Shown here: in pieces, positions 2,219-40,185 of the stretch
How positions within the stretch are numbered: position 1 is the first letter of the stretch
Layout of the letters: each line of letters opens with the position of its first letter
Source: a virus
Strand: one strand, 5' to 3'
Length of the DNA: 43,053 nucleotides
IMG/VR virus record: IMGVR_UViG_3300023174_000296
Location: 1 to 43,053 of that record
Notes under the pieces: model-generated
Told to the model about the DNA's origin: nothing
The model's database searches: none
What the model saw: the letters and a program-made list of their open reading frames with translations, nothing else
Made by a program: the position numbers and the translations under genes

Positions 2219-2815
2219 TTATCCTTCGTACATTACGTTTACAGATCCTGCATTTAAACCAGTAGCTGCAATTTGTACTCGGTCTAGTGCGCCACTTAAT
2301 CCCGAATTATTTAAAGACCCACCACCAGATACTATGTTGGTTGTGGCTTGCCTACCAGCATGGTCTGCAACCCAAACATTAAGGCCAACGTGTGTAAGTC
2401 GTATTGTGCCAGAGTTTCTATGTGTGGAAGAGTTCCCAAAATTTGCCCAAATAAAACCGTCCGTTGCGCTTACGCCAGCCGTATTTCCAGCAGAATCAAT
2501 AGTTACGCTGGTACTAACATAATTAGTAGTTCGCAGTCCCCCAGAATCACCAACCTGAACATTTATATGTGCTGGTGCGCCACTTGTCCCAACCTCATAC
2601 AAAATCACGGTAACTCGTTTAGCCCAACTCGGTATGCCACTAAAAAGAACCGATCCACCTGTTGCGACTTGCCCTGACATAAGCGTCATCGGTTGCGCCA
2701 ACTTTGCAGTCGTTACCGCACTACCAGCAATATCAGCAGTCGTAATGCAATCGTCAGGCAATCCCCCTGCGGAGATGCCTGTGATTGTTCCTGTGCCGTT
2801 AATTGAGATAGGCAT
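2219..2815 (-). CDS. Tail fibre-type protein with shared C-terminal module
   Basis: A 198-residue protein. The start MPISINGTGTITGISAGG is a fibre-type N-terminus (a beta repeat with ADIAGSAVTTAKLAQP, typical of collar/fibre shafts). From about residue 58 onward it matches the C-terminal module of the 236-residue gene downstream: W-[AV]-K-R-[VI]-T-V near the start, S-G-G-x-x-T-T-x-Y in the middle and S-V-N-[IV]-[LM]-Y-E-G at the end. It begins one base after the stop of the 279-residue gene. Likely a virion tail component that binds host surface; the exact position in the tail cannot be told from sequence. Confidence 0.7.
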   Translation of the reverse strand: MPISINGTGTITGISAGGLPDDCITTADIAGSAVTTAKLAQPMTLMSGQVATGGSVLFSGIPSWAKRVTVILYEVGTSGAPAHINVQVGDSGGLRTTNYVSTSVTIDSAGNTAGVSATDGFIWANFGNSSTHRNSGTIRLTHVGLNVWVADHAGRQATTNIVSGGGSLNNSGLSGALDRVQIAATGLNAGSVNVMYEG

Positions 2816-3702: not shown

Positions 3703-4104
3703 TTATAAACCTAAAAGAGACCAGCTGGGGCTTTCGCAATCAGCCCTCCGTACCTGCATGGTCTTCTTTCGCCCCAGTTTAGCTATTGGCATAATCATCC
3801 AAGACCCAAACGGCTCAAGCCATATGGCCATATGATCAATATCATGTTTTTTATATATGGCCTTCTTGGATGTCTTATGGCTTACGCATACCCTGCACCT
3901 GCTTGTAGACCTAGATCCAACCCTGTTTAACACTGTCATCCAGCTACTTTTAACCTGAACCTTGTAGATTCTACCCCTTGAAACAACCAGCCAATCGTAT
4001 GGCTGGGAGTCTCCGATAGGCTTACAGGGCACCCCGCCCCTCTTGAGAACCTCCAAGCAGAACATCTGTTCGGCCAGCTCGCCGAACTTCTTGCCCTCTT
4101 TCAC
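3703..4104 (-). CDS. PD-(D/E)XK-like endonuclease family protein
   Basis: A 133-residue protein. It has the pattern of the small PD-(D/E)XK_5-type nucleases: E9 in an N-terminal helix (KKFGELAEQMFCLEVLKRGG), D37 in SQPYDWLVV, then Q50-V51-K52 in the strand KVQVKSSW, where Q takes the place of the usual E. The remaining half is beta-rich and basic. Metal-dependent DNA cleavage is what the family suggests; the Q at the acidic position leaves activity uncertain. It begins immediately next to the stop of the 88-residue gene (ATG at 4104). Lying among structural genes rather than replication genes, it might be a homing-type or packaging-related nuclease; this is inference. Confidence 0.6.
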   Translation of the reverse strand: MKEGKKFGELAEQMFCLEVLKRGGVPCKPIGDSQPYDWLVVSRGRIYKVQVKSSWMTVLNRVGSRSTSRCRVCVSHKTSKKAIYKKHDIDHMAIWLEPFGSWMIMPIAKLGRKKTMQVRRADCESPSWSLLGL

Positions 4105-17080: not shown

Positions 17081-18115
17081 ATGAACAACAACATCAACCA
17101 AATTAAAATCGGAAACCTTGCGAGCGATCTCGCAACGGCATTCAAAAACAAAATCTCCTGCCTGCTCATCGGGCGGGCGGGAGTCGGCAAAACTGCCATC
17201 GTGCAGGACGCTTGGAAGCGGGTCGCTTCCGAGATCGGTGGTGACCCCGAGGTCATCGTCGATACACCTGCCTGCTCTGATCCGACTGACTACAAAGGTT
17301 TGCCAGTCGTGATCGACGGGTCAGCAGTGTTCGATCCCATCGGCCTGCTACGCCGACTGCTCAAAGCGAAGAAGCCCACCCTGTGCTTCCTCGATGACTT
17401 GGGTCAGGCCAGTGAGGCGGTGCAGAAAGGTCTGCAACACATAATCTGGGCACGAGAGGTCGAAGGCAAACGCATCCCCGATTGTGTCCAGTTCGTCGGA
17501 GCGACGAATGCCCGCACTGATCGGGCTGGCGTGGGCTGGCTCATCTCTCCCCTGATCGGGAGATTCGATGCGACCATCGAAGTCCTCCCCGACCTCAACC
17601 ACTGGCTGGGCTGGGCTGGCAGTGCTGGGATCTCCCCCGAGATTCTCAGCTTCCTCCAGTTCCGACCTGATCGGTTCGCTGAAGAACCCACCGCCGAGTT
17701 CGCCAAGAAAGTGGCGTGTCCTCGCTCGTGGGAGGCAGTTGACAGACTCGTGAAGGCGAAGCTCACCTCTCCCGCTTGGCTCACCGCCTCGCTCGGGACG
17801 GCGGGCGTTGACCTGCACGGCTTCCTCTCGGTCTACGAGGGGCTGGCAACTCTGCCCGACGAGATACTGGCGAACCCGACGAAGGCATCGGTGCCGACCA
17901 AGCCCGAGGTTCGGTGGGCTTTAATCGGTGCGTTGACGGCGAGGCTGAAGGCTGATGCGAAAAACTCGAAAGCGTTTTTCAGCTACATCCCTCGACTCGG
18001 CGAGGCGTTCGAGGCGTTCGCCTGTAAAACTGCGACCAAGGTCGCACCAAAAGTTGAGATCTGCCCGCACTACGGAGAGTGGGTAGCGAATCGTGGTCAC
18101 CTGTTGGTGGCCTAA
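17081..18115 (+). CDS. MoxR/CobS-type AAA+ ATPase
   Basis: A 344-residue AAA+ protein. Walker A is G31-R-A-G-V-G-K37-T38, Walker B LCFLD105-D106, sensor 1 VGATN143-A-R, and the probable arginine finger R161 in SPLIGRFD. The C-terminal part is a helical lid. The MoxR/CobS group works as ring-shaped chaperones with VWA-domain partners for metal insertion or complex remodelling. The next gene encodes exactly such a partner. The start ATG 17081 follows AAAGGAACAGACAAC. The substrate in a phage context is unknown. Classification rests on the motifs and on the neighbour. Confidence 0.85.
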   Translation: MNNNINQIKIGNLASDLATAFKNKISCLLIGRAGVGKTAIVQDAWKRVASEIGGDPEVIVDTPACSDPTDYKGLPVVIDGSAVFDPIGLLRRLLKAKKPTLCFLDDLGQASEAVQKGLQHIIWAREVEGKRIPDCVQFVGATNARTDRAGVGWLISPLIGRFDATIEVLPDLNHWLGWAGSAGISPEILSFLQFRPDRFAEEPTAEFAKKVACPRSWEAVDRLVKAKLTSPAWLTASLGTAGVDLHGFLSVYEGLATLPDEILANPTKASVPTKPEVRWALIGALTARLKADAKNSKAFFSYIPRLGEAFEAFACKTATKVAPKVEICPHYGEWVANRGHLLVA

Positions 18116-18133: not shown

Positions 18134-19384
18134 ATGAACAAGAAAAAACTATCTGCAGAGTCGATCCTCGAGAAGGCTCGGGTGCGGATCGTGTGCGATG
18201 CCCCGTTCTTCGGGGCAATCGCATGCGGTCTGCCCAGTGAGCTGGACGAGGCAGTCGAGACGGCATGCACAGACGGCACGAGAATCCGCTACGCACCCAG
18301 CTTCCTCGAGAAGCTGGATGTGAGGCAGGTTGTTGGGCTGATCGCTCACGAGGTGCTTCACATCGCACTGCTCCACTCGGTCAATCGTGGAAGCCGTGAC
18401 CCTCAGCTGTGGAATCAGGCGTGTGACTATGTCATCAACCTGATTCTAAAAGACGGCGGGTACTACCTCCCCGAGGGCGGTCTCATCGACGAGAAGTACC
18501 GCAACCTGTCCGAGTATCAGGTCTACGAGATACTGGCAAAGGACAGGGCTGAGAAGCAGAAGCAGAAACAGCAGAAGCAGGACAACCAGTCATCCAGCAA
18601 ACAGGATGACAAGTCATCCAGCTCGGGAGCTGGTGGCGATGAGCAGTCCGACGAGCAATCGTCTGACGGCGAGCCAGACAAGTCATCCGAGTGGGGCAAG
18701 GTTGAAGACCCAACCGAGGACGGCAAGCCACTGAGCGAAGCGAAAAAGGCTGAGGTATCTGAAAAGATTCTTCAGTCAGTCGCTGGCGCAGAGGCTACAG
18801 CCCGACTCGCTGGCAACCTGCCCGCTGGGCTTGACCGACTGCTGGGCAGCTCACGCAAACCAGCGGTCAACTGGCGGGACACACTTCGCCGACTGCTGAC
18901 CGAGAAGACCAACGATGACTGGAGCTGGCGTAGGCCATCTCGCCGTCACCGCACAGCAATCCTCCCGAGCCTCAGCTCTGAGAGTGCAGGCGTACTGGCG
19001 ATCTCGGTGGACACCTCGGGGAGCATCAGCCCCGAGTTGTACGAGCAGGCCATCGCCGAGGTTCAGGAGTGTGCCCAGTCGATCAAGGCGAAAGTCTTCA
19101 TCGGCTCGTGCGATACCGAACACTACGGCTTCGAGGAATACCTCGACGGCGATCCCCTCCCCAAGTTGCGGGGCGGTGGTGGCACAGACTTCGACGATGC
19201 CTCGGTGAAACTCGATGACCTGATCAGTCAGGGCAACGAGGTGAAGGCACATGTCTTCATCACTGACGGCCAAGTCAGCAACTGGGGAGCTGAGGTTTGC
19301 CCGACTGTCTGGGCGATCCACTCCAACACTGAAGGCATCCAGCCCCCGTATGGGGAGCTGGTCAACATCCCTCGGGAGGGATGA
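18134..19384 (+). CDS. Metallopeptidase-like and VWA-domain protein (DUF2201-type)
   Basis: A 416-residue two-domain protein. The N-terminal domain has the zincin motif H72-E-V-L-H76 in a helix, with D98 in NQACDYVINLIL as possible third ligand, typical of the putative metallopeptidase next to VWA domains. A disordered Q/S/D-rich linker (140-200) follows. The C-terminal VWA domain has a complete MIDAS: D293-T-S-G-S297, T351 in GGGGTDF and D378 in FITDGQ. It would be the partner of the MoxR ATPase encoded 18 bases upstream. AGGAGG precedes the ATG. Whether it cleaves peptides or only uses a zinc-site fold is not known. Confidence 0.85.
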   Translation: MNKKKLSAESILEKARVRIVCDAPFFGAIACGLPSELDEAVETACTDGTRIRYAPSFLEKLDVRQVVGLIAHEVLHIALLHSVNRGSRDPQLWNQACDYVINLILKDGGYYLPEGGLIDEKYRNLSEYQVYEILAKDRAEKQKQKQQKQDNQSSSKQDDKSSSSGAGGDEQSDEQSSDGEPDKSSEWGKVEDPTEDGKPLSEAKKAEVSEKILQSVAGAEATARLAGNLPAGLDRLLGSSRKPAVNWRDTLRRLLTEKTNDDWSWRRPSRRHRTAILPSLSSESAGVLAISVDTSGSISPELYEQAIAEVQECAQSIKAKVFIGSCDTEHYGFEEYLDGDPLPKLRGGGGTDFDDASVKLDDLISQGNEVKAHVFITDGQVSNWGAEVCPTVWAIHSNTEGIQPPYGELVNIPREG

Positions 19385-28870: not shown

Positions 28871-29866
28871 ATGGCATCGTTGGTCAAGCGTGGGAAGGTT
28901 TGGTATTGCTACTACCGTATTGACGGTAGGCAGTTTGGTGTAACGACCTATCAGGTTGGTAGGGCACCAAATGAAGTAGCCAGACAGATCCTCGAGAAGT
29001 ACCGCCAAATGGAAGGGTGCAACAAGCATGGCCTTCCCTACGTTGATACAGCTGCAAGCGTATCTGACCTGATTGGCAGTTACTGGGAATCGAAACCATC
29101 GCTTACCCTGCATACAGCAAAGAAGAAGAAATCCATGCTTGATACACTCACCCAGTTTATGGGTGGGAGGAAGGTCACATCCATTGGGGTGCCTGAGTGT
29201 GACCAGTTTTTCTCTACCTGCCTGACGCACCTGCACGATAACAGCAAGGAGCTTTATCGTGCCGTAATTTCATCGATATGGTCTTGGGGCATGAAGAGGA
29301 ACCTAGCCACGAAGAACCCTTGGTCTGAGATAGCATTCAAGCGGGCACCAAAGACCCCTCGTCGTTGCCTGAAGCAGCACGAGATAGACAGCCTGATACA
29401 GAATGCCAAGGGGTCTGCCCTGCTGGCGATCATGCTTGGGCTGTACGCTGGTGCCCGTGTCGGTGATTGCGTCAACCTGTACGGTGAGGACATCGACTTC
29501 GCAACGAAGACGATTACCTTTAGGCGCAGGAAGGGTAGCCGTGAGGGTTCTCCAAAGGTGCAGGAGATTCCGCTTCACCCGATTCTTGAGGAAGTATTAT
29601 CCAAGATCCCGCTGGTAAGTAACCAGCCAGTCATACCCCACAAGAAGACCTACCTTGGGATCAAGGTTGCAAATGCAATGAAAGAGGCTGGGGTTAATGC
29701 CACCCATCACTACCTTCGCCACACCTTCATATCGAACATGGCAGAGAAGCAGGCTGGCATGGCTCAGATCAGTCAGCTTGCTGGGCACTCCAGCTGGAAC
29801 ATTACCAAGAGGTACACCCATATTACCCAAGACTCGTTAAGGGAAACGATTGGCGTACTTCAGTAG
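28871..29866 (+). CDS. int: Tyrosine integrase
   Basis: A 331-residue tyrosine recombinase. The N-terminal part (1-60) has an arm-binding-like segment (KRGKVWYCYYRIDGRQFGVT), followed by a core-binding domain (65-160) and the catalytic domain with R196 (YAGARVGD), K221, H280-Y-L-R283 in HHYLRHTF, H306 in AGHSSW and the nucleophile Y315 in KRYTHI. All catalytic residues are present, so it should be active. It inserts the phage DNA at a tRNA-type site; the matching tRNA-like segment lies 137 bases downstream. Confidence 0.92.
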   Translation: MASLVKRGKVWYCYYRIDGRQFGVTTYQVGRAPNEVARQILEKYRQMEGCNKHGLPYVDTAASVSDLIGSYWESKPSLTLHTAKKKKSMLDTLTQFMGGRKVTSIGVPECDQFFSTCLTHLHDNSKELYRAVISSIWSWGMKRNLATKNPWSEIAFKRAPKTPRRCLKQHEIDSLIQNAKGSALLAIMLGLYAGARVGDCVNLYGEDIDFATKTITFRRRKGSREGSPKVQEIPLHPILEEVLSKIPLVSNQPVIPHKKTYLGIKVANAMKEAGVNATHHYLRHTFISNMAEKQAGMAQISQLAGHSSWNITKRYTHITQDSLRETIGVLQ

Positions 29867-30337: not shown

Positions 30338-30587
30338 TGGGTCGCTTTCTTTTGCTCAGGAGATCATCCCCGATAACTTCGGTGGCTACCTTTCCGTTGA
30401 TGAAAAGGAGGGGCTTGAGGAGCGTTCCGTTTTTATCTCCAACCCCAGAACCTCCTATATTGGGGAGATGGATGAAGACGGAGACTTCGTTGCACTTGGG
30501 CGCATGGGTGGTGAAACTTGTTTTGGCAAGCGGGTTGGTCGTAACGCAGTTATCGTTCTGCGTACACCTGTTGACCAAACCGAATAG
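30306..30587 (+). CDS. Small secreted protein, possible lysogenic-conversion gene
   Basis: A 93-residue protein starting MRLALIFLLGIGSLSFAQEI, with a clear signal peptide (cleavage about A17). The mature part is acidic and beta-like (YLSVDEKEGLEERSVFISNP, RTSYIGEMDEDGDFVALGRM) with a conserved-looking GGETCFGKRVGRNAVIVL. The ATG overlaps that of the opposing small gene (30307), and its end overlaps the end of the giant gene by 38 bases. Genes next to attP and opposite to the late operon are often expressed in the prophage; this is inference. Confidence 0.55.
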   Translation: MRLALIFLLGIGSLSFAQEIIPDNFGGYLSVDEKEGLEERSVFISNPRTSYIGEMDEDGDFVALGRMGGETCFGKRVGRNAVIVLRTPVDQTE

Positions 30588-33500
30588 CATCACCCTTCAG
30601 CTCCCTCTTTGCTGGCTTGTAGATAGCCACCGTTCCAGAAAGCAGTGCCCTTGCGTTGTCCATACTCACACCCTGCTCTTTCAGAATCCTCATCACTTCT
30701 CCCCTGCTCACACCCAGCCTCATGGCTGCACTGATTACACCAGACGTTTCGTTGAAGATCTCCTTACGGGAGTTCCTCATCTGCCTGTAGGCTTCTAGCC
30801 TTGCTTCGTTGCTCACGTTGCTCCTGTCGTAGTAGGCAGCTGTAAAGATCCCAGTGGCATCGTTGAGCCTGTTGCTGAACTTACGAGCAGTGAAGCCCAA
30901 GCTCTGGCGAGGATCTAAAGTTACAACTCGTTGACCAGTTAATGTTGCAATCGTCTCCAAGGCTGGGTCGTAGGCACGGCCAGTCTGGGTCACCTGACCA
31001 GTCAGACCCTTGTATACCCTGATGGATGAAACAAGTGTTCCGATATTGAAAGCATCAAACATGTGGGCAGAGATGGCAGATGCCTTCGATGCTATGTCTG
31101 CCTCTGGATTATAGACCCTTCCACCAGTTGTTCCCTTCGTATTACGAGCAATATCCAGAATCTTTCCAGATAGGATCTGTTCTCCGTAGAGTGGCTGGAA
31201 GGCAGTCTTCACCGACTCCAGTAGCTTCTGATCCCAAGTTCCATCCATCTTCATCAGGGCGATAATAGGATCACGGAAGTAGTTGTACGGATCGACGTAG
31301 GACATGTTGACCTGATTGACGTTGCCCTTCTCGTCACGGCCAAGGTACAGCTTGGTTGAGTATTTATCCCAAGGTGCATCCAACTGGCGAATTGCTTTGT
31401 CCTCGTCGTCATCGATGCCCATCGCAGCTGCGATGCCAGCTGCGACTGCGCTGAATCCAATGCTGGCCATCATGGTTCCTGCCAGCCTGTAGGCACCAGC
31501 CTGACGGATGGCTGGGTTATCACTCCTCAGCTCTTCGTTGATTGTGCCGAGAAGATTGTAGCCAGTCCTGACCACCTCGAGCGGGAAGCTAATGAAGGCA
31601 CCGACGAAGGGTTGAGAGCGGAGGACGTTACCTAGCCGAGGGATACGGCTGTAGGTAGGCAGGAGGTTAAGAACCTTATCAGCTGCCATAGGCTCCAGCT
31701 TGGACAGGGGCTGTGTTGGGTAAGCCCTTCTAAGTCTGGACAGCTCCACCTCGAAGGCCACGATCTTTGGGATAGCGTCACCCAGCTGGTAAAGGTTGGT
31801 GGCACCACGACCAATAGCCTTTAGCCCTTTAGTAACATGATTGTCTAGGAAGTCGGCAGCTGTGCTTACGTTCGCATCCTTGAAGTATGACTCCATCTCG
31901 TTTGCAAATACGCTTTGCCCGAGGATGCCCAGCCGAGTCAGCTTGGCGTTGTAGTCACGGAACTCCTTGCTCTTGTTAATCCCGAGCTGGGCACCAGCGG
32001 AAGGCAGTGCCAGCGTCTTGAGCTTGTTGAGTGCCGTGATTCCGTCTGGCGAGAAGATGTACCCGTTGGCGACGAGGAACGATCCGTTGCCAAGCAAGTT
32101 TCTGACCTGCGTCTGAACGGACAGAACGGTCTTGGCGAACTTGGAGAACCCGTTGGCCTTGAGGTAAAGCTCTCCCATCTTGCCCAAGAAGTCCTGAGCC
32201 TTGGCACGACCACCAAAGGTATTGCGAAGTGCGGTGGCGATCTCCTCGCTGGTGTAAACATCGTTCTTCATTCCATCGATGAACATGTTCAGCGGGCTGG
32301 CAGTCCTGCTTCCGTCCGATACCAGCTTGGTCGTGAACCCAGTCCGTGGAGTCGTGAAGAAGATCTTGTTCATGCCAGCGTCACGCATTCCCTTGAGCAT
32401 GTTGTGTGCCTCGAGGAACCCAGACATCTTCTGGACGGACTTAAGGAAGTTCACCCGAGGATCTTTGATCTCACCCCACAGCATACGGATCTCCTCGGGG
32501 ATATCCTTTCTGGCAGTGATGATGGAAAGATCCTTGGTCAGCCCGCTACCGATCTGACCGAAGGGGCTGTCGGTTTCAGGCGAGGCAAGGTATTCGATCT
32601 GACCGTCAACCTCGGCCTTCGTTACGCCACCACTGCGAGCCTTGGCTAGGCCAGCCTGATAGTCGGCCTGATAGGTTGCCGAGTCAGGGTTGATCGCTAC
32701 CTCTCCACGGGCAAGGCTTTGTTGCTTGGCGTACGCATTTGCGTACTTGTTATGCAAGTAGGAGGTGACAGTGGTCACGAGCTTGTTCTGCACTTGTTTC
32801 GGAAGGCTGTTGAAAGGGTTCTTGTAGTTGGGGTTCTCCCACTTCTCGTAGCTACGGTGTAGGTAGACACCCTTGTTGGCTTCGAGGATGGGCTGGAGAT
32901 CTTCTGAGATGGCACCAGATCGGAGCAGGTCTTGTGTCAGGCTATCGATCAGGTTGCGGGCGTTGCCAACGGCAGAGGCAACATCGGTTGGGAGTTTAGC
33001 CCTAGCTAGTGGATTCTGTAGACCTTCGTTGATTCTAGCGATCTCTGCCTCTGGGAGCTGGTCGAGCGACTTCCCGTAGGAACGCTTCACTGCTGCTTCG
33101 ATATCCGAGACTGCGTTCTGCGCCCGAAGCATCTTCTCGTTGACGTTGAATCCACGCTGCTCGATCATGCGGAAGATGTCGTAAGGCAAGGCACCGCCAG
33201 TACGGAGCTGTTGACGGCCAAACGAGATGACGGGTTCTAGCATCTGTCTTGCTTGCTCGCCCCGTGTAGAGAACAAGAAGTCACTCCTGTTGCCCTCAAC
33301 AGCACCCTTAACGAATACGGTATTTCCAATAAGGATAGCCTCATCAGCAGAAATGACGGGGTTGCCATTCTGCTTGCTGTAGAAATAGCTGTGACGTTCT
33401 GGGTCAAATCCTACTTGCTGATAGTTCTCTAGAAGTCCAGCTGGAGCTTCAGTTATTGGAATGTACTTGCCTTCCACAGTTGCCAACGGTGTTTTGTTTA

Positions 33501-36500
33501 GACCAGTTGCTATTTGAAGTGTTCTTTTCTCTGATGCGTTAAAGAACTTGGCATCACTTACAGCAGCGATTCTGTCGTACCCGATTACACTGCCAACACT
33601 GCTCTTGCCTTTTGCTTTATTATGAACCGTGATAACATACTTGCCAGTTCTGTTGAATGAAGGGATATCAATCCGCAGCCCGACTGATGTTCCCTCTGGA
33701 AGAGTTCGTGCAGCTCCATACATATCCCGCTTGCCAGCGTCGAGGGCTGACAGTGCCTCATCGTCCGTAAGGACTGGGATCGATGTTACTGGACGGGCTG
33801 GCTTCTGCTCTTCGGAGATCCTGTTTAGCTCTTCTCTGGTGATCCTACCCTCAAAGAAATCGTTTGCTGCCTTCTGAATAATCGGATTGCGAGCCTGTGC
33901 CCCACGAGTGGAGGCTCTTACTTCTTCGGGTAAAACTTGCTGCGTGTCTCGTCCAGCACTGAGAGCGTTTGCTCGACTGATGGCAGTCTGCCTTCTTTCC
34001 TCAATCGCTCGACTGTCTGGTACAACTTCTCTGCGCTGAATGCCTCGCTCTTCGAGGATCTTAGCTGTTCCATCGGAGTGCTTGTAGTATCCGATTTTTG
34101 CTCCGAGGTCTTTCCAGAGTCCGATTTCATATACCCATGATACTGCCTGTAATTCAGCAACACTCAAGCCAAGTTTATCGGCTGCAAATCTAACTGCCTT
34201 ATCTTGAATCTTAAGTTCTGCTGGTGTTGGTGCCTGAATTATCTCGCCGTTAGCGTCAAGAACTGTACCCATCATCCTATTCCACATACGGCTAAAGTGA
34301 AGATCTGCAGTAAGAACGTCATAGTTGCCGTTCATGTTAAGGTGATATGCGCCACCCTTCTGCCCAAAGATCATTGATCCATACTTAAGATCATCCTGCT
34401 TGCCACCCACGTTTGGGTTGTATTCCCTGAGTTCTTTAATTGGATGTTTTGAGAGCAACCAGTCGGCAGCACCCTTCTCGCCCTTCTCTTCCACGAGCCT
34501 GTTAATCCTATTGAGGTAAATCTCAACTGTCCCACCACGGACAGTCCACCCCTTCCCGTCATCCTGTCTTGGTTTAACTGGGAACTGCTGGTTGGAAGAT
34601 TCCCAGATACGCATTGTAGTTAGAGTCTCTGCCTTGGGTGTCTGGCTAAACGAGTTGCCAACAAGCATGGCTTTGAACAAGACCATCTTTTCTTTAATCG
34701 AGTCAATCGACTCTGGGTAAATCTTGGCAAGATCTGACTCCATCTGCTCAATATCCTGACTATACCAAGTCATACCAGTGTCTTCCTGCTGAAGCTGGTA
34801 CGATACCTCAGACCATGTATTTATAAGGTACTGAGCCATTCTGACATCGGCTGGAGTATCCTTAGTAAGTGGCTCTAAGATTCGGTCAATGCTTCTTTGC
34901 TGAAGGAACTCAGCTACTTCTTTTACTGAAGGCTTATTAAGCCTAACACCATCACGCCTTAACGGAACAGACTCGACGGAGACTGCTCCCCGTGTCGAGG
35001 CTACTACTTCTGACGACCCTGCTTCTTGAAGGCTTCTGCCTTCAGCTTGGATTCGTCCCGCTTGGACATCTGGGTTGACGGTTCGTCTAATGGCGTTGAC
35101 CGCTGTCCGAAGACTCCCTTTTCGTCCAGCGAGGTAATCAACTTTTCCACCCAGCTCTTGTAGTCTTCCCCTGTCTGAGGGCGTGTAAAGGCCACTGGCT
35201 CGTAGGTCTCTGACTGCTGGGGCTGTGTCGATTGACTTCCCAGAGGAGATGTCGAAGATTGCATCTTGTTTGCCATTTTCAGCAACATAAAGCGCATCTA
35301 CCTTATTGTCGAGAACGAAAGAAATATCATAGACAAACTTGTACTGATCCTTGGGTAGTGCCTCATTGTTCTCAGTCGTTTTTAGCCATCCACCAAAATA
35401 CGCACCAGCTCCCTCAACATTCGCCAACCTTTGGCCAATACCGAAAGCCCTAAAGATATCGTCGTTGCTGAGAAGGTAAGATCTGAAAGCCTTAATGCCC
35501 TCTTCCCTGCTCATGTTGAGTGGCATTTCGCCCTCTGTATTCTTGGAGGGGGCTACAATATATCCACTAGCTGGGACATTGAATAATATCGGATCAACAG
35601 TAAATCCATCTGGGTTGTTCCTTGTATAATCAAACAGCTGTTCGTACTTGGCGAGGCCACGGATCGAAGCCTGTGGCTCCTCGTTAATGCCAGCACGACC
35701 AGCCCTAACGGCTTGTTCGATCCTTGTCCGTAATCCCTTAAACCTATCACCCTGATCTAGGAATGATCTGAACTCTAGGTTCAGCCTCTCCCCGTGACCT
35801 GTGTATCGAAGGAACCTGTCGAGTAGGCTTCTGAACGCACGGCCAGCCTTATCCATCACGCCATTCTTTTCGCTGATTCCCTTAGCCCACTGGTCGTTTG
35901 TCCAAGCCAGACGCTCGGAGAAGAACTCCTGCACTGAGTCCATGACACGAGGACTCACCTCGGCCTTTAGTCCACCGAACTCATCAAACAGTGCACCAGT
36001 CCTAGACTCTGTCTCTGCTTTCCATAGACCCCTGATCTCAGCCTGCACACCAGCTGGAAGCGTGTCCCAAAAGGCGTGGCCAAGCTCATGGAGCATCTCC
36101 CTGCGAGCCATAGGCATGGTGGCGAGCTTGTCCGACAGGAAGACCATAGCCTTCCTTCCTTCAGAAGCCCGCTTATAGTAGGCAACAGCACCCTTTGGAA
36201 CCTGACCCGATTCAATTAAAGGAGTGATGTCGCCGACTTCAAAAGTGATGGCATTGCGTAGGGCTGGCGATGCAATGCTGTTCCACAGGTTCTGAAACCC
36301 TTGGACAAGTGCCAGCTTCTGGGATGCGCTTGGAGGCGTGTTCCGTTCGGATGCTAGGATGTACCCTTCTGGACGAGCGGTAAGACCACGAAGCTCGGTC
36401 TCCCGCATGCCGATCATTCGGTTAAGACGGGCAACATTCCGTGAAACACTCTGCTTGTTTTCTATCTTGTTTCCTTCGGAGTCGTACTTAATAACTTCCT

Positions 36501-38217
36501 TTGCAGTGTTTGGATCGTACTCAGTTGTTCCAGAGTTTGGATTACCACCAACTAGAATCTGCTTTGCCAATACAGCCTCACGGATTTTGTAAAGTCTTTC
36601 TATCTCTTTGCTAAGTACAACCTGACGGGCAACTCCACGATCATCTCGTGATACGGATTCTGGAATGATCTGATTGTCTGGGAGAGTTTCCTGCTCTGTA
36701 GCCCTTCCAAGCTGCATGTTGCGCTGGGCTTCTGCAATCAACCTGCGATCCATCTCCTGCTCTGTCTCCAAGCCGAACTCTTTTGCGATACTGCTGGTTG
36801 GAGAGATGATGCGACCCGTGAACTGGGATCGTGTAGCAGTCCTCGGATCTGCTGGGCTGGTGATTGGGTTTAGAAGTGGGCTGTCATCGGTTACGTCACG
36901 AACCCTGACTGGCTCACCCGTCCTGAACTCTGCCTCCCACAAAAGACCTTGAGGGGTATGGAAAGTAAATGTCTCTGTATTGTTTCCATCCGCATCTTGA
37001 CTAACGCTACTACCAAGGGGGACGCTATTGATCGCAGGGTTCTGGCCAATGTCTGGCACTTCTCCAGCAAGCCGATCCCCGAACACAGTCTTGGGGGTTG
37101 AGGTTGTCTCAGTTTCCCCAGTCTCAATATCAATCCTCTGCTGTGTGGTTGTGTTAGCGTTTCTTGCTGCCTCAGTAATCTGTGTAAGTCGTTCTGGAGT
37201 TAGTGATGCAGCTAGGTCTGCTTTGCTCTTAAGCTCGTCAGATAGTTTCTCAGCATAGAAAGCCTCGTTATCACGGGTGATTGCATTCACACCGCCACCG
37301 ATCAGTCCTCCAGTTACGAGTCCTACCGCACCAGACTGCAGTGCACCATCCATGATTCCCCTGTTCGGATCGTACCCAGCAAACTTAGAGGCAACGAAGT
37401 TGTTGGCCATCTGAGAACCAGTCTCCTGCAAGAACTCTTCGGTAGCTCCATCGACCACACCACGAAGTATGGATCTCTTGGCAATTCCAGCCGTTAATCT
37501 ACCAGCAAGACCACCAAGAGGTATTGCCTCTGTCAGTCCGATAGCACCGCCAGCTAGGGCTGATGCACGAGATACAAACTCGTTTGCTCCAGCCTGCTTC
37601 GCCTCTTCATAGATTGATCCAGCGTTTGTTGCTGCGCCCATGACGGCTGCAGTGCCAAGTCCAACACCAGTTACTATAGCTGCTGGAGCCTCAGCTGGAA
37701 CTGCTGCTGCTGCAGCTGCAGCTACACCAAAGAACCCCAGCGCACTTCCAAGACCTTGGGGTAGTAGGGTATTAATGAAGTCATTTCGTAGACGGGGATC
37801 TTCGATGCCAGTTGTCTGCTTAACACTCTCGTCGATATTCTGTGCGATCTTATAGATATCACGCTCAGTGACTGGAGTGTTGTCATCGTAGTTTCCAAGA
37901 GACTCTCCAATCGCTTGCTGGGCTAGGGCAGCTGCCTTGAAGGCTGACGTGAAAGTTCCAGATGCGCCCTTGTAGATATTGCTAAGGAATGCAGATCCAC
38001 GCTCAACCGCACCGAGGTCACCCAGCGCATCCTGCGATGCAATCTTTACAAACTCGTCGGAAGCCTGACCAACTTCCTTTGCATCTCTAGGCTCAACCTG
38101 CGTGTAATACTCCTGAACGTACTGGGAGTACTTGTTGATCGTATCTACTTTACCCTCGGTGGGTAATTCGTCGTACCCTACTTGGGCTTTTATGTCATCC
38201 CAAGGTGTGATCGCCAT
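30550..38217 (-). CDS. Giant polyvalent polyprotein with zincin motif (internal virion-type, 2555 residues)
   Basis: The largest gene, 2555 residues. Residues 157-312 have Ala/Gly-rich membrane-like segments (LGFFGVAAAAAAAVPAEAPA, GLVTGGLIGGGVNAI), as in DNA-ejection proteins. H710-E-L-G-H714 in EMLHELGHAFWD is a zinc-protease motif. Four copies of [A/F]-S-[T/I]-R-G occur at 850, 1073, 1435 and 1649, dividing the chain into five parts. The part after 1077 contains MTWYSQDIEQMESDLAKIYP and GQKGGAYHLNMNGNYDVLTA, which I know from polyvalent proteins, and the end (from about 2180) has SRIPRLGNVLRSQPFVGAFI, an LPD38-like end domain. It follows two internal-protein-like genes and would be injected with the DNA. 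Confidence 0.8.
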   Translation of the reverse strand: MAITPWDDIKAQVGYDELPTEGKVDTINKYSQYVQEYYTQVEPRDAKEVGQASDEFVKIASQDALGDLGAVERGSAFLSNIYKGASGTFTSAFKAAALAQQAIGESLGNYDDNTPVTERDIYKIAQNIDESVKQTTGIEDPRLRNDFINTLLPQGLGSALGFFGVAAAAAAAVPAEAPAAIVTGVGLGTAAVMGAATNAGSIYEEAKQAGANEFVSRASALAGGAIGLTEAIPLGGLAGRLTAGIAKRSILRGVVDGATEEFLQETGSQMANNFVASKFAGYDPNRGIMDGALQSGAVGLVTGGLIGGGVNAITRDNEAFYAEKLSDELKSKADLAASLTPERLTQITEAARNANTTTQQRIDIETGETETTSTPKTVFGDRLAGEVPDIGQNPAINSVPLGSSVSQDADGNNTETFTFHTPQGLLWEAEFRTGEPVRVRDVTDDSPLLNPITSPADPRTATRSQFTGRIISPTSSIAKEFGLETEQEMDRRLIAEAQRNMQLGRATEQETLPDNQIIPESVSRDDRGVARQVVLSKEIERLYKIREAVLAKQILVGGNPNSGTTEYDPNTAKEVIKYDSEGNKIENKQSVSRNVARLNRMIGMRETELRGLTARPEGYILASERNTPPSASQKLALVQGFQNLWNSIASPALRNAITFEVGDITPLIESGQVPKGAVAYYKRASEGRKAMVFLSDKLATMPMARREMLHELGHAFWDTLPAGVQAEIRGLWKAETESRTGALFDEFGGLKAEVSPRVMDSVQEFFSERLAWTNDQWAKGISEKNGVMDKAGRAFRSLLDRFLRYTGHGERLNLEFRSFLDQGDRFKGLRTRIEQAVRAGRAGINEEPQASIRGLAKYEQLFDYTRNNPDGFTVDPILFNVPASGYIVAPSKNTEGEMPLNMSREEGIKAFRSYLLSNDDIFRAFGIGQRLANVEGAGAYFGGWLKTTENNEALPKDQYKFVYDISFVLDNKVDALYVAENGKQDAIFDISSGKSIDTAPAVRDLRASGLYTPSDRGRLQELGGKVDYLAGRKGSLRTAVNAIRRTVNPDVQAGRIQAEGRSLQEAGSSEVVASTRGAVSVESVPLRRDGVRLNKPSVKEVAEFLQQRSIDRILEPLTKDTPADVRMAQYLINTWSEVSYQLQQEDTGMTWYSQDIEQMESDLAKIYPESIDSIKEKMVLFKAMLVGNSFSQTPKAETLTTMRIWESSNQQFPVKPRQDDGKGWTVRGGTVEIYLNRINRLVEEKGEKGAADWLLSKHPIKELREYNPNVGGKQDDLKYGSMIFGQKGGAYHLNMNGNYDVLTADLHFSRMWNRMMGTVLDANGEIIQAPTPAELKIQDKAVRFAADKLGLSVAELQAVSWVYEIGLWKDLGAKIGYYKHSDGTAKILEERGIQRREVVPDSRAIEERRQTAISRANALSAGRDTQQVLPEEVRASTRGAQARNPIIQKAANDFFEGRITREELNRISEEQKPARPVTSIPVLTDDEALSALDAGKRDMYGAARTLPEGTSVGLRIDIPSFNRTGKYVITVHNKAKGKSSVGSVIGYDRIAAVSDAKFFNASEKRTLQIATGLNKTPLATVEGKYIPITEAPAGLLENYQQVGFDPERHSYFYSKQNGNPVISADEAILIGNTVFVKGAVEGNRSDFLFSTRGEQARQMLEPVISFGRQQLRTGGALPYDIFRMIEQRGFNVNEKMLRAQNAVSDIEAAVKRSYGKSLDQLPEAEIARINEGLQNPLARAKLPTDVASAVGNARNLIDSLTQDLLRSGAISEDLQPILEANKGVYLHRSYEKWENPNYKNPFNSLPKQVQNKLVTTVTSYLHNKYANAYAKQQSLARGEVAINPDSATYQADYQAGLAKARSGGVTKAEVDGQIEYLASPETDSPFGQIGSGLTKDLSIITARKDIPEEIRMLWGEIKDPRVNFLKSVQKMSGFLEAHNMLKGMRDAGMNKIFFTTPRTGFTTKLVSDGSRTASPLNMFIDGMKNDVYTSEEIATALRNTFGGRAKAQDFLGKMGELYLKANGFSKFAKTVLSVQTQVRNLLGNGSFLVANGYIFSPDGITALNKLKTLALPSAGAQLGINKSKEFRDYNAKLTRLGILGQSVFANEMESYFKDANVSTAADFLDNHVTKGLKAIGRGATNLYQLGDAIPKIVAFEVELSRLRRAYPTQPLSKLEPMAADKVLNLLPTYSRIPRLGNVLRSQPFVGAFISFPLEVVRTGYNLLGTINEELRSDNPAIRQAGAYRLAGTMMASIGFSAVAAGIAAAMGIDDDEDKAIRQLDAPWDKYSTKLYLGRDEKGNVNQVNMSYVDPYNYFRDPIIALMKMDGTWDQKLLESVKTAFQPLYGEQILSGKILDIARNTKGTTGGRVYNPEADIASKASAISAHMFDAFNIGTLVSSIRVYKGLTGQVTQTGRAYDPALETIATLTGQRVVTLDPRQSLGFTARKFSNRLNDATGIFTAAYYDRSNVSNEARLEAYRQMRNSRKEIFNETSGVISAAMRLGVSRGEVMRILKEQGVSMDNARALLSGTVAIYKPAKRELKGDAIRFGQQVYAER

Positions 38218-38219
38218 GA

Positions 38220-39155
38220 TCAGTTACCAGACTTCAGCTTCTTTTCTTCCTCGATAATGTCTGCTGCAATTCTACGCATGGCTGCAGTGTTCTGGTTTCC
38301 TCTGCTATTCTTTTGCCCCTTGAGGGATTCAAATTCTTTTTTAAGCGTCTCGATCTTCATCCTGCTGCTGTTGGAATTATCGTTTGCGATATCTTCTTTC
38401 GTGCGAACACGACGACCACCGCCACCGCCAGTTGCTGCTGGATTTTTAACTGGCTCAGATTCCCCTGCTCCACTTTCCTGCATCATAGAGTCAACCTGAT
38501 CGTCAGTTGAAATTGGTTTGGTTCTCTCAACTGGGACTTGACTCACATCTGATCCAGTTGGGGTTGGTTGCCTTGGTGCGGTTGCCTTACTTCCAAAGAT
38601 GCCACCAAGAATGCTTGAGTTCTTCTCAGCTGCGATCTCTGGTGCGTTACCCTTAAACATAGACTTGTAAGCCTCAAGATCTGCAGCCGAATCAAATACA
38701 GCTTTAACAGTTGAGCCATCTGCATCTGTCGTGTTGTACTCAAACTTCCCACCACCAAGAGACTTGGTCATCATCTTCATAGCATAGTCACTGTTCTGCA
38801 GTCGTGCCTGTAGCCTTTGCTTTGAAATGTTATCTTCATCTGTTCCGTAGCCACGCTCCTGCATTGTCTTGTCTAGTTTCGACAATTCGCCCATCAAATT
38901 GATCTGCTCGTCTGAGTGGGCATTCAGTGCTGATGTGATTGCACTAAAAGACCGTGCGCCCTTTGAGACTGGATCGTTGCCACTGAAAGAACCACCGCCA
39001 CCAGACCTAGCTGACTGCATTCTTTCTTGAGCTGCAATCCTTTGAGCCTGCATCTCTTTCTCTGCATCTAGCTTTCTTTGCGATGTAATCGCATCCAGCC
39101 CAGAGTTCATCATGTACGCCCCAGCCTGTGCTACTCCTCCGTAATAATCTGGCAT
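38220..39155 (-). CDS. Internal virion protein candidate
   Basis: A 311-residue protein with two bases to the giant gene. It is helical with QRKLDAEKEMQAQRIAAQER (25-44), a GGGGSFSG linker, long coiled helices (ALNAHSDEQINLMGELSKLD) and Gly/Ser-rich linkers, ending in IIEEEKKLKSGN. Such low-complexity helical proteins, encoded just before a giant late protein, correspond in position to the internal core proteins of T7-like phages. Exact role inferred. Confidence 0.62.
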   Translation of the reverse strand: MPDYYGGVAQAGAYMMNSGLDAITSQRKLDAEKEMQAQRIAAQERMQSARSGGGGSFSGNDPVSKGARSFSAITSALNAHSDEQINLMGELSKLDKTMQERGYGTDEDNISKQRLQARLQNSDYAMKMMTKSLGGGKFEYNTTDADGSTVKAVFDSAADLEAYKSMFKGNAPEIAAEKNSSILGGIFGSKATAPRQPTPTGSDVSQVPVERTKPISTDDQVDSMMQESGAGESEPVKNPAATGGGGGRRVRTKEDIANDNSNSSRMKIETLKKEFESLKGQKNSRGNQNTAAMRRIAADIIEEEKKLKSGN

Positions 39156-39156
39156 A

Positions 39157-40185
39157 TTAAGCTCCGTATCCGCAGATGGCCTTAGCCCTGCGAACTTGTT
39201 TTACCTTTGTATCCATCCAGCGTTTGATCCATCCCTTGAGGGTTGCTTTACCACTGATGAAATTAGCGATCCGTTCCCCGTGCTTGATGTATCCGTTCAG
39301 CATCCACTTCGGTGCCATGCTCAACATCCATTCCCTAAAGATCATCCACTCAGGATTATCTTCACCGTAAACCTCACGAGCTACCCAGCATACGAGACCA
39401 CCGATACCCATTCCCAACCCAGCAATACCTTGAGCTGCGCCAATGATCTGTGCGCCCATCGGCTGGTAGGTGGCAGCTTGGTAAGCGAGCTGGGCATTAT
39501 ACCCAGACATCTGCGTCGAGTAGTTCTGTGCGTTGACACCCTGACCCTGCAGGTACTGCTGCCCACCCATGAACGCTGCGTTCTGCATGGGCTGCATTGT
39601 GTTAGGCGAGAAACCAGATGCACTTGTCGAAGGGCTACCAATTTGTCCGTTGGCAATCGGGGCGAGTCCAAGATAGCTCTGCGTATTTGCGATGCGTTGC
39701 TGTTGGAGTTGCTGACCTACGTTAAACTTAGCAAGAACCTCGGCAGCACTGGCTGCGTTACCATACATGTTTCCACGAGCTGCCTGAGAAGAGCGAATAT
39801 CCTGTTCCGCTGTGCGAGCCTGATCGGCTGATAGGCTAGATCCCAAAGCAAGTTCGCTAGAGATCTTTTCACCGAGCTGTTGGTTGGCCTTAAACCTCTC
39901 TGGGTCTGACATCTCCAAGATTCTGCGTTGCTCTGCAACTGCATCAGTGCCGTATCTTTTTGAAAGTGTAATTGCGTTATCGACCTGTGCATCCGAGGTC
40001 TTACGCATGATATCGATATCGGTAGGTACGCTGGCTTCTTTGCCTTTCCTATATGCTTCTAATGTTAATGGATACCCTGTCGTTGCGTAGTATTCCATCG
40101 ACTCCTTGTTCGCAGCTCCAGTATCTGCAGGAGACACTGAGGGCGGGGGTGGCGGTGCAGGAGGAGGTGAAGGAGGCGAACCCAT
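39157..40185 (-). CDS. Virion protein with CWVAREVYG C-terminal domain
   Basis: A 342-residue protein. Residues 1-20 are Pro-rich (GSPPSPPPAPPPPPS). The middle is helical (DPERFKANQQLGEKISSELA, AARGNMYGNAASAAEVLAKF) and Gln/Gly-rich, similar to internal or tail-core proteins. From about 276 there is CWVAREVYGEDNPEWMIF, then GYIKHGERIANFISGKATLK: a conserved Cys-containing end I have seen in several bacterial and phage proteins, whose role I do not know. It is separated by one base from the next gene. Confidence 0.62.
   Translation of the reverse strand: MGSPPSPPPAPPPPPSVSPADTGAANKESMEYYATTGYPLTLEAYRKGKEASVPTDIDIMRKTSDAQVDNAITLSKRYGTDAVAEQRRILEMSDPERFKANQQLGEKISSELALGSSLSADQARTAEQDIRSSQAARGNMYGNAASAAEVLAKFNVGQQLQQQRIANTQSYLGLAPIANGQIGSPSTSASGFSPNTMQPMQNAAFMGGQQYLQGQGVNAQNYSTQMSGYNAQLAYQAATYQPMGAQIIGAAQGIAGLGMGIGGLVCWVAREVYGEDNPEWMIFREWMLSMAPKWMLNGYIKHGERIANFISGKATLKGWIKRWMDTKVKQVRRAKAICGYGA

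Follow-up and report, generated by a model that had tools for sequence, protein, structure and literature searches.

How do phages hold several unrelated protein domains in one very long chain, and what marks the borders between them? We addressed this question in a freshwater virus of bacteria (IMG/VR record IMGVR_UViG_3300023174_000296), whose sequence of 43,053 nucleotides, called the window here, encodes a 2555-residue protein in which a five-residue motif recurs four times.

Architecture of the 2555-residue protein

The open reading frame at 30550-38217 lies on the minus strand and starts with ATG. Its coordinates and translation agree with the initial annotation, as do the residue positions given there for HELGH (710-714) and for the four motifs. 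At least two unrelated domains in one long chain of phage or plasmid origin define a polyvalent protein, and this chain holds a zincin, a DUF7178-like, an L5 gp82-like and a virion C-terminal domain, to which the chains of relatives add GNAT domains and second zincins. The features are as follows.

30550-38217, minus strand: gene of the polyvalent (multi-domain) protein, 2555 aa (open reading frame and translation; relatives in IMG/VR)
36463-38217, minus strand: residues 1-585, conserved region at the N-terminus, in which a transmembrane-like stretch rich in Ala lies near residue 164 (alignment, hydropathy scan)
35671-36462, minus strand: residues 586-849, zincin region, kept in the family and matched in the relative L039 at E = 9e-26 (sequence comparison)
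36076-36090, minus strand: HELGH 710-714, predicted zincin active site
35914-35928, minus strand: QEFFSE with E764 and E768, conserved downstream Glu residues as candidates for the third zinc ligand (KEWYAE in L039)
35656-35670, minus strand: boundary motif 1, ASIRG 850-854, where the module swap in L007 begins
35002-35655, minus strand: module A, residues 855-1072, with a homologous module in L024
34987-35001, minus strand: boundary motif 2, ASTRG 1073-1077
33916-34986, minus strand: module B, residues 1078-1434, with a weak likeness to DUF7178 that falls short of the Pfam cut-off (E = 6e-4)
33901-33915, minus strand: boundary motif 3, ASTRG 1435-1439, swap point in L006
33274-33900, minus strand: module C, residues 1440-1648, with a likeness to L5 gp82 that also falls short of the Pfam cut-off (E = 2e-4)
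33259-33273, minus strand: boundary motif 4, FSTRG 1649-1653, where a 153-aa module is inserted in L007
30553-33258, minus strand: residues 1654-2555, alpha-helical domain at the C-terminus, from a family of virion proteins (phrog_22602, E = 2e-40; structure model; phi18:3 gp123)
38220-40185, minus strand: two genes directly upstream (311 and 342 aa) whose products, judging from gene order only, are probably internal proteins of the virion

Module A matched neither Pfam nor PHROG, and the two upstream genes gave no PHROG match and one sub-threshold Pfam match.

A motif conserved at the amino-acid level

Shuffling the protein 2000 times gave [AF]S[TI]RG about 0.02 times on average and never the four copies observed; this pattern was picked after the data had been seen, but the relatives confirm it. 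Across 23 copies in seven family proteins (window protein included), S, R and G are identical throughout, and the extended consensus reads (E/D)-V-x-A-S-T-R-G-E-Q. The four motifs had been described as evenly styled, which holds for these three residues, whereas the first ([AFYTL]) and third ([TIVAR]) positions vary. Invariant S, R and G together with conserved flanks are what an enzyme recognition site would show. When viral contigs were scanned at the DNA level for ASTRGEQA, only family members were recovered, along with two chance matches outside any long open reading frame.

A recurring short sequence at module joints could also be a DNA-level element, either a recombination site or a duplication remnant, and such an origin would suit both the exchange of modules at the motif (described below) and the linker text just upstream of it that is common to some junctions. 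The codons speak against it. Copies within a protein share their codon in 5/32 comparisons for S (expected fraction 0.17), 6/32 for R (0.19) and 8/32 for G (0.25), which is the chance level set by codon usage, and the motif serine is encoded by both TCN and AGC while S, R and G themselves never change. The motif is thus held by protein-level selection and not as a DNA repeat or recombination site; the codon comparison largely refutes a DNA-level origin, to which we assign only a very small probability. That the motif is a boundary signal at the protein level is near certain.

Modules are exchanged, inserted and lost at the motif

A small IMG/VR family shares the N-terminal region and the zincin, and scans of GTDB genomes returned no relative of the zincin region. 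The nearest family members are collinear with the window protein and retain all four motifs. Three others (L006, L007 and L021) exceed 90% identity elsewhere, yet differ from it by whole modules that start and end at the motif. In L006, a module of 431 residues that bears another zincin site, HEVAH, takes the place of module C. L007 has one 572-residue DUF7178 module in place of A and B, as well as an extra 153-residue module after FSTRG1649 that ends in a new ASTRG, and L021 carries a GNAT module, a tandem motif pair and a small module. Module C has been lost from L025, where exactly one motif is found at the joint. The more distant L024, whose C-terminal domain is ~70% identical, carries ASVRG, ASARG and LSRRG in addition to a tandem ASTRG pair, and as in L021 no domain lies between its tandem motifs. 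L093 contains ASARG, YSTRG and ASTRG. The DUF7178 assignment, weak for module B, is clear for the modules of L007 (E = 3e-17) and L024 (E = 1e-29).

The median distance to a motif is 11 aa for BLAST breakpoints between family members, compared with 231 for random positions, and 61% of the breakpoints lie within 12 aa of a motif (3.9% for random positions); by our own count, about eight independent events underlie the 49 breakpoints. In keeping with the initial annotation, the motifs are conserved in relatives and mark exact module boundaries, and FSTRG1649 sits at a fold edge (see below). One border in L093, between a DUF7178 module and a gp82-like module, has no motif, which counts against the processing reading given below.

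Among the exchangeable modules flanked by motifs is a second zincin module, found at protein coordinates 1589-2074 in L024 (HETAH), 1670-2150 in L093 (HETIH) and 122-552 in L006 (HEVAH); in these three proteins it had no significant Pfam match.

A C-terminal domain of a virion-protein family

In PHROG, the match of this domain is phrog_22602, annotated as "virion structural protein", and the domain's homologue in Cellulophaga phage phi18:3 (gp123) is annotated as a virion protein from MS/MS proteomics. Packaging and injection of the protein are plausible given this family membership. An LPD38-like end had been proposed for the chain. At the level of Pfam this was not borne out, as PF18857 (LPD38) was unmatched in the full-length scan and phrog_22602 was found instead; at the level of fold, the modeled C-terminal domain resembles predictions for proteins that carry the annotation large polyvalent protein, LPD or LPD38.

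The model of this domain (42 sequences, mean pLDDT 78) also bears on the position of the motif. The first helix of the fold begins at residue 1650, so that in the model FSTRG1649-1653 borders the folded domain at its extreme N-terminal end and does not lie inside it. This was the one boundary that could be modeled; the low confidence before it coincides with poor alignment coverage and is no proof of disorder, and a sequence-based disorder index places motif 4 at the 41st percentile only. The model of residues 586-1740, which covers motifs 1-3 and the zincin, was poor (mean pLDDT 36).

A Foldseek search of the PDB with the C-terminal model gave no match at E <= 0.001. The two phage matches among solved structures, which are also the model's best, are both internal core proteins, namely the T7 core 9jyy_I (Z 7.5, rmsd 3.9, 183 aligned residues) and the phage E1004 core 9vvp_W (Z 6.6, rmsd 6.9, 244 aligned residues). 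Identity is 12%, and Z scores of this size can arise by chance between helical proteins. The protein resembles T7 gp16-type internal core (ejection) proteins in being the largest internal protein and the last in the virion gene run; with fold resemblance confined to the chance range, we do not claim membership in that group.

A zincin as the candidate processing protease

Just ahead of motif 1, the HELGH site and the QEFFSE of the zincin region are kept in every family member that covers it. HExxH with a candidate acidic third ligand downstream, as expected of a zincin, is present in the window protein, L024 and L093 (E764/E768) and, with an equivalent pair, in L039. The zincin region had no sequence match in the PDB. 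L039 combines the zincin and the C-terminal domain across a linker of ~100 aa and lacks the ASTRG motif, which is also absent from module C homologues in unrelated phage proteins that have no HExxH/zincin. Both observations link the motif with the carrier that has the zincin and not with the modules, an association that common descent could explain.

On these grounds the motif is predicted to be a processing site, which we consider probable, and the putative HELGH zincin appears the single most likely protease for it. Our preferred reading as a whole, to which we give about even chances, is of a packaged polyvalent protein whose motif is a boundary signal and most likely the place where the HELGH zincin processes the chain. 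The chain would run from the N-terminal region through the zincin and a variable set of effector modules to the C-terminal virion domain, with [AFYTL]-S-[TIVAR]-R-G placed between modules. A protease, presumably the HELGH zincin just before motif 1, would cut at the motif, either in the head or after ejection, and the modules so freed could act separately in the host.

Cleavage by a different enzyme is conceivable, be it a host protease or the other HExxH protein of the window, a DUF2201_N putative metallopeptidase (18134-19384, plus strand; E = 9e-56) that has a VWA-like domain and adjoins an AAA ATPase. In favor of this alternative, no other obvious prohead protease was seen among the proteins scanned. 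Against that, the HELGH zincin is present in cis and conserved together with the motif, and we know of no DUF2201 protein that serves as a processing protease, making cleavage by another protease improbable in our estimate.

Alternatively, the motif might not be cut at all. Its boundary position and amino-acid conservation demand a protein-level function, which is not necessarily cleavage, and an uncut linker element could dock modules (e.g., onto the zincin or onto the core domain at the C-terminus) or help in threading the chain through the ejection channel. There is precedent in a survey of polyvalent proteins (PMC5512222), according to which the N4 virion RNA polymerase has a zincin and is yet packaged uncut, and plasmid polyvalent proteins likewise travel uncut. 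We regard an uncut linker as rather unlikely but more credible than cleavage by another protease, given that the five-residue core and its subsite-like flanks look like a site for a protease and that a conserved protease resides in the same chain, although neither point is proof.

Comparison with known systems

Polyvalent proteins were defined by Iyer et al. in 2017 (PMC5512222), and that article already proposes their processing by zincins, which could take place ahead of packaging (as for P1 DdrB), inside the head or once the protein has been injected. The statement in the initial annotation that the protease for linker motifs in polyvalent proteins was not known is therefore incomplete. The accessible part of the article names no cleavage or site motif, and the word "linker" does not occur in the article. 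The protein family described here is like those polyvalent proteins in size, in its unrelated effector-like domains within one chain, in its zincin and in being phage-encoded, and differs from their description, as far as the article was available, in its conserved motif at boundaries at which modules are exchanged. A literature search, which was not exhaustive, returned no report of such a boundary motif. The site consensus, the motif as a joint for module exchange and the link to a particular zincin thus appear to be new, whereas the idea of zincin processing dates from 2017.

P1 DdrB, a packaged phage protein with a C-terminal HELGH zincin, is known to be processed (PMC5512222), to about 76 kDa; its sequence has no ASTRG-type motif, and the accessible text of that article does not say where DdrB is cut. 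Packaged or ejected proteins are also cut during head maturation in SPN3US (gp245) and in P1, where Pro acts on DarA (PMC10052503; PMC12810830). In those systems the protease is a separate phage protein, whereas the candidate in the window family is part of the chain that it would cut, at sites located between exchangeable modules.

With a defined site consensus, the zincin self-processing idea of 2017 becomes directly testable. If cleavage is real, the stops would be reliable domain borders for splitting giant proteins into single effectors, and would show phages exchanging early anti-host functions without breaking the carrier. A more far-reaching and tentative proposal, which we judge somewhat less likely to be true than false, is that of a plug-in effector platform, with a fixed carrier (N-terminal region, processing zincin and virion C-terminal domain), effector modules swapped between cleavable ASTRG stops, and a zincin and stop that co-evolve. 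Other polyvalent lineages would then have stops of their own (e.g., [FY]SR), as parts of a general protease-and-site system for arming virions.

Border residues in other polyvalent proteins

In zincin-bearing polyvalent proteins, [FY]SR is enriched (26 copies where 15.6 would be expected; z 2.7, for one pattern out of 13 examined), and no enrichment was found in polyvalent proteins without a zincin. The tripeptide lies at clear borders in the prophage polyvalent proteins L122, L124 and L152, and Pseudoalteromonas phage Y3 has LFSR nine residues after LPD1, while many other polyvalent proteins have no [FY]SR border. [FY]S[RTKV] precedes HExxxH zincins by 88-110 residues in about half of the non-redundant cases, which are related by descent. 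The modest enrichment is a lead that points only weakly to a general border motif across polyvalent proteins.

In another prophage's polyvalent protein, RYARR joins tandem ART modules. The prophage proteins L122, L124, L152 and L138 each have recurring border residues of their own, [FY]SR or RYARR, beside domain ends.

Further observations in the window

The window encodes a tyrosine integrase (28871-29866, plus strand), so the phage may be temperate, though the GTDB scans turned up no member of the family. The DUF2201 gene (18134-19384, plus strand) and the neighboring AAA ATPase gene (17081-18115, plus strand) constitute a MoxR/VWA-like pair in a phage genome. The adjacent genes at 1506-2216 and 2219-2815 (minus strand) share a "(S/G)IPSW(V/A)KR(I/V)TV" stretch and similar C-terminal ends, a likeness that suggests duplicated tail or fibre modules. 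A PDDEXK_5 endonuclease (3703-4104, minus strand) is situated amid structural genes, possibly as a homing-type insertion.
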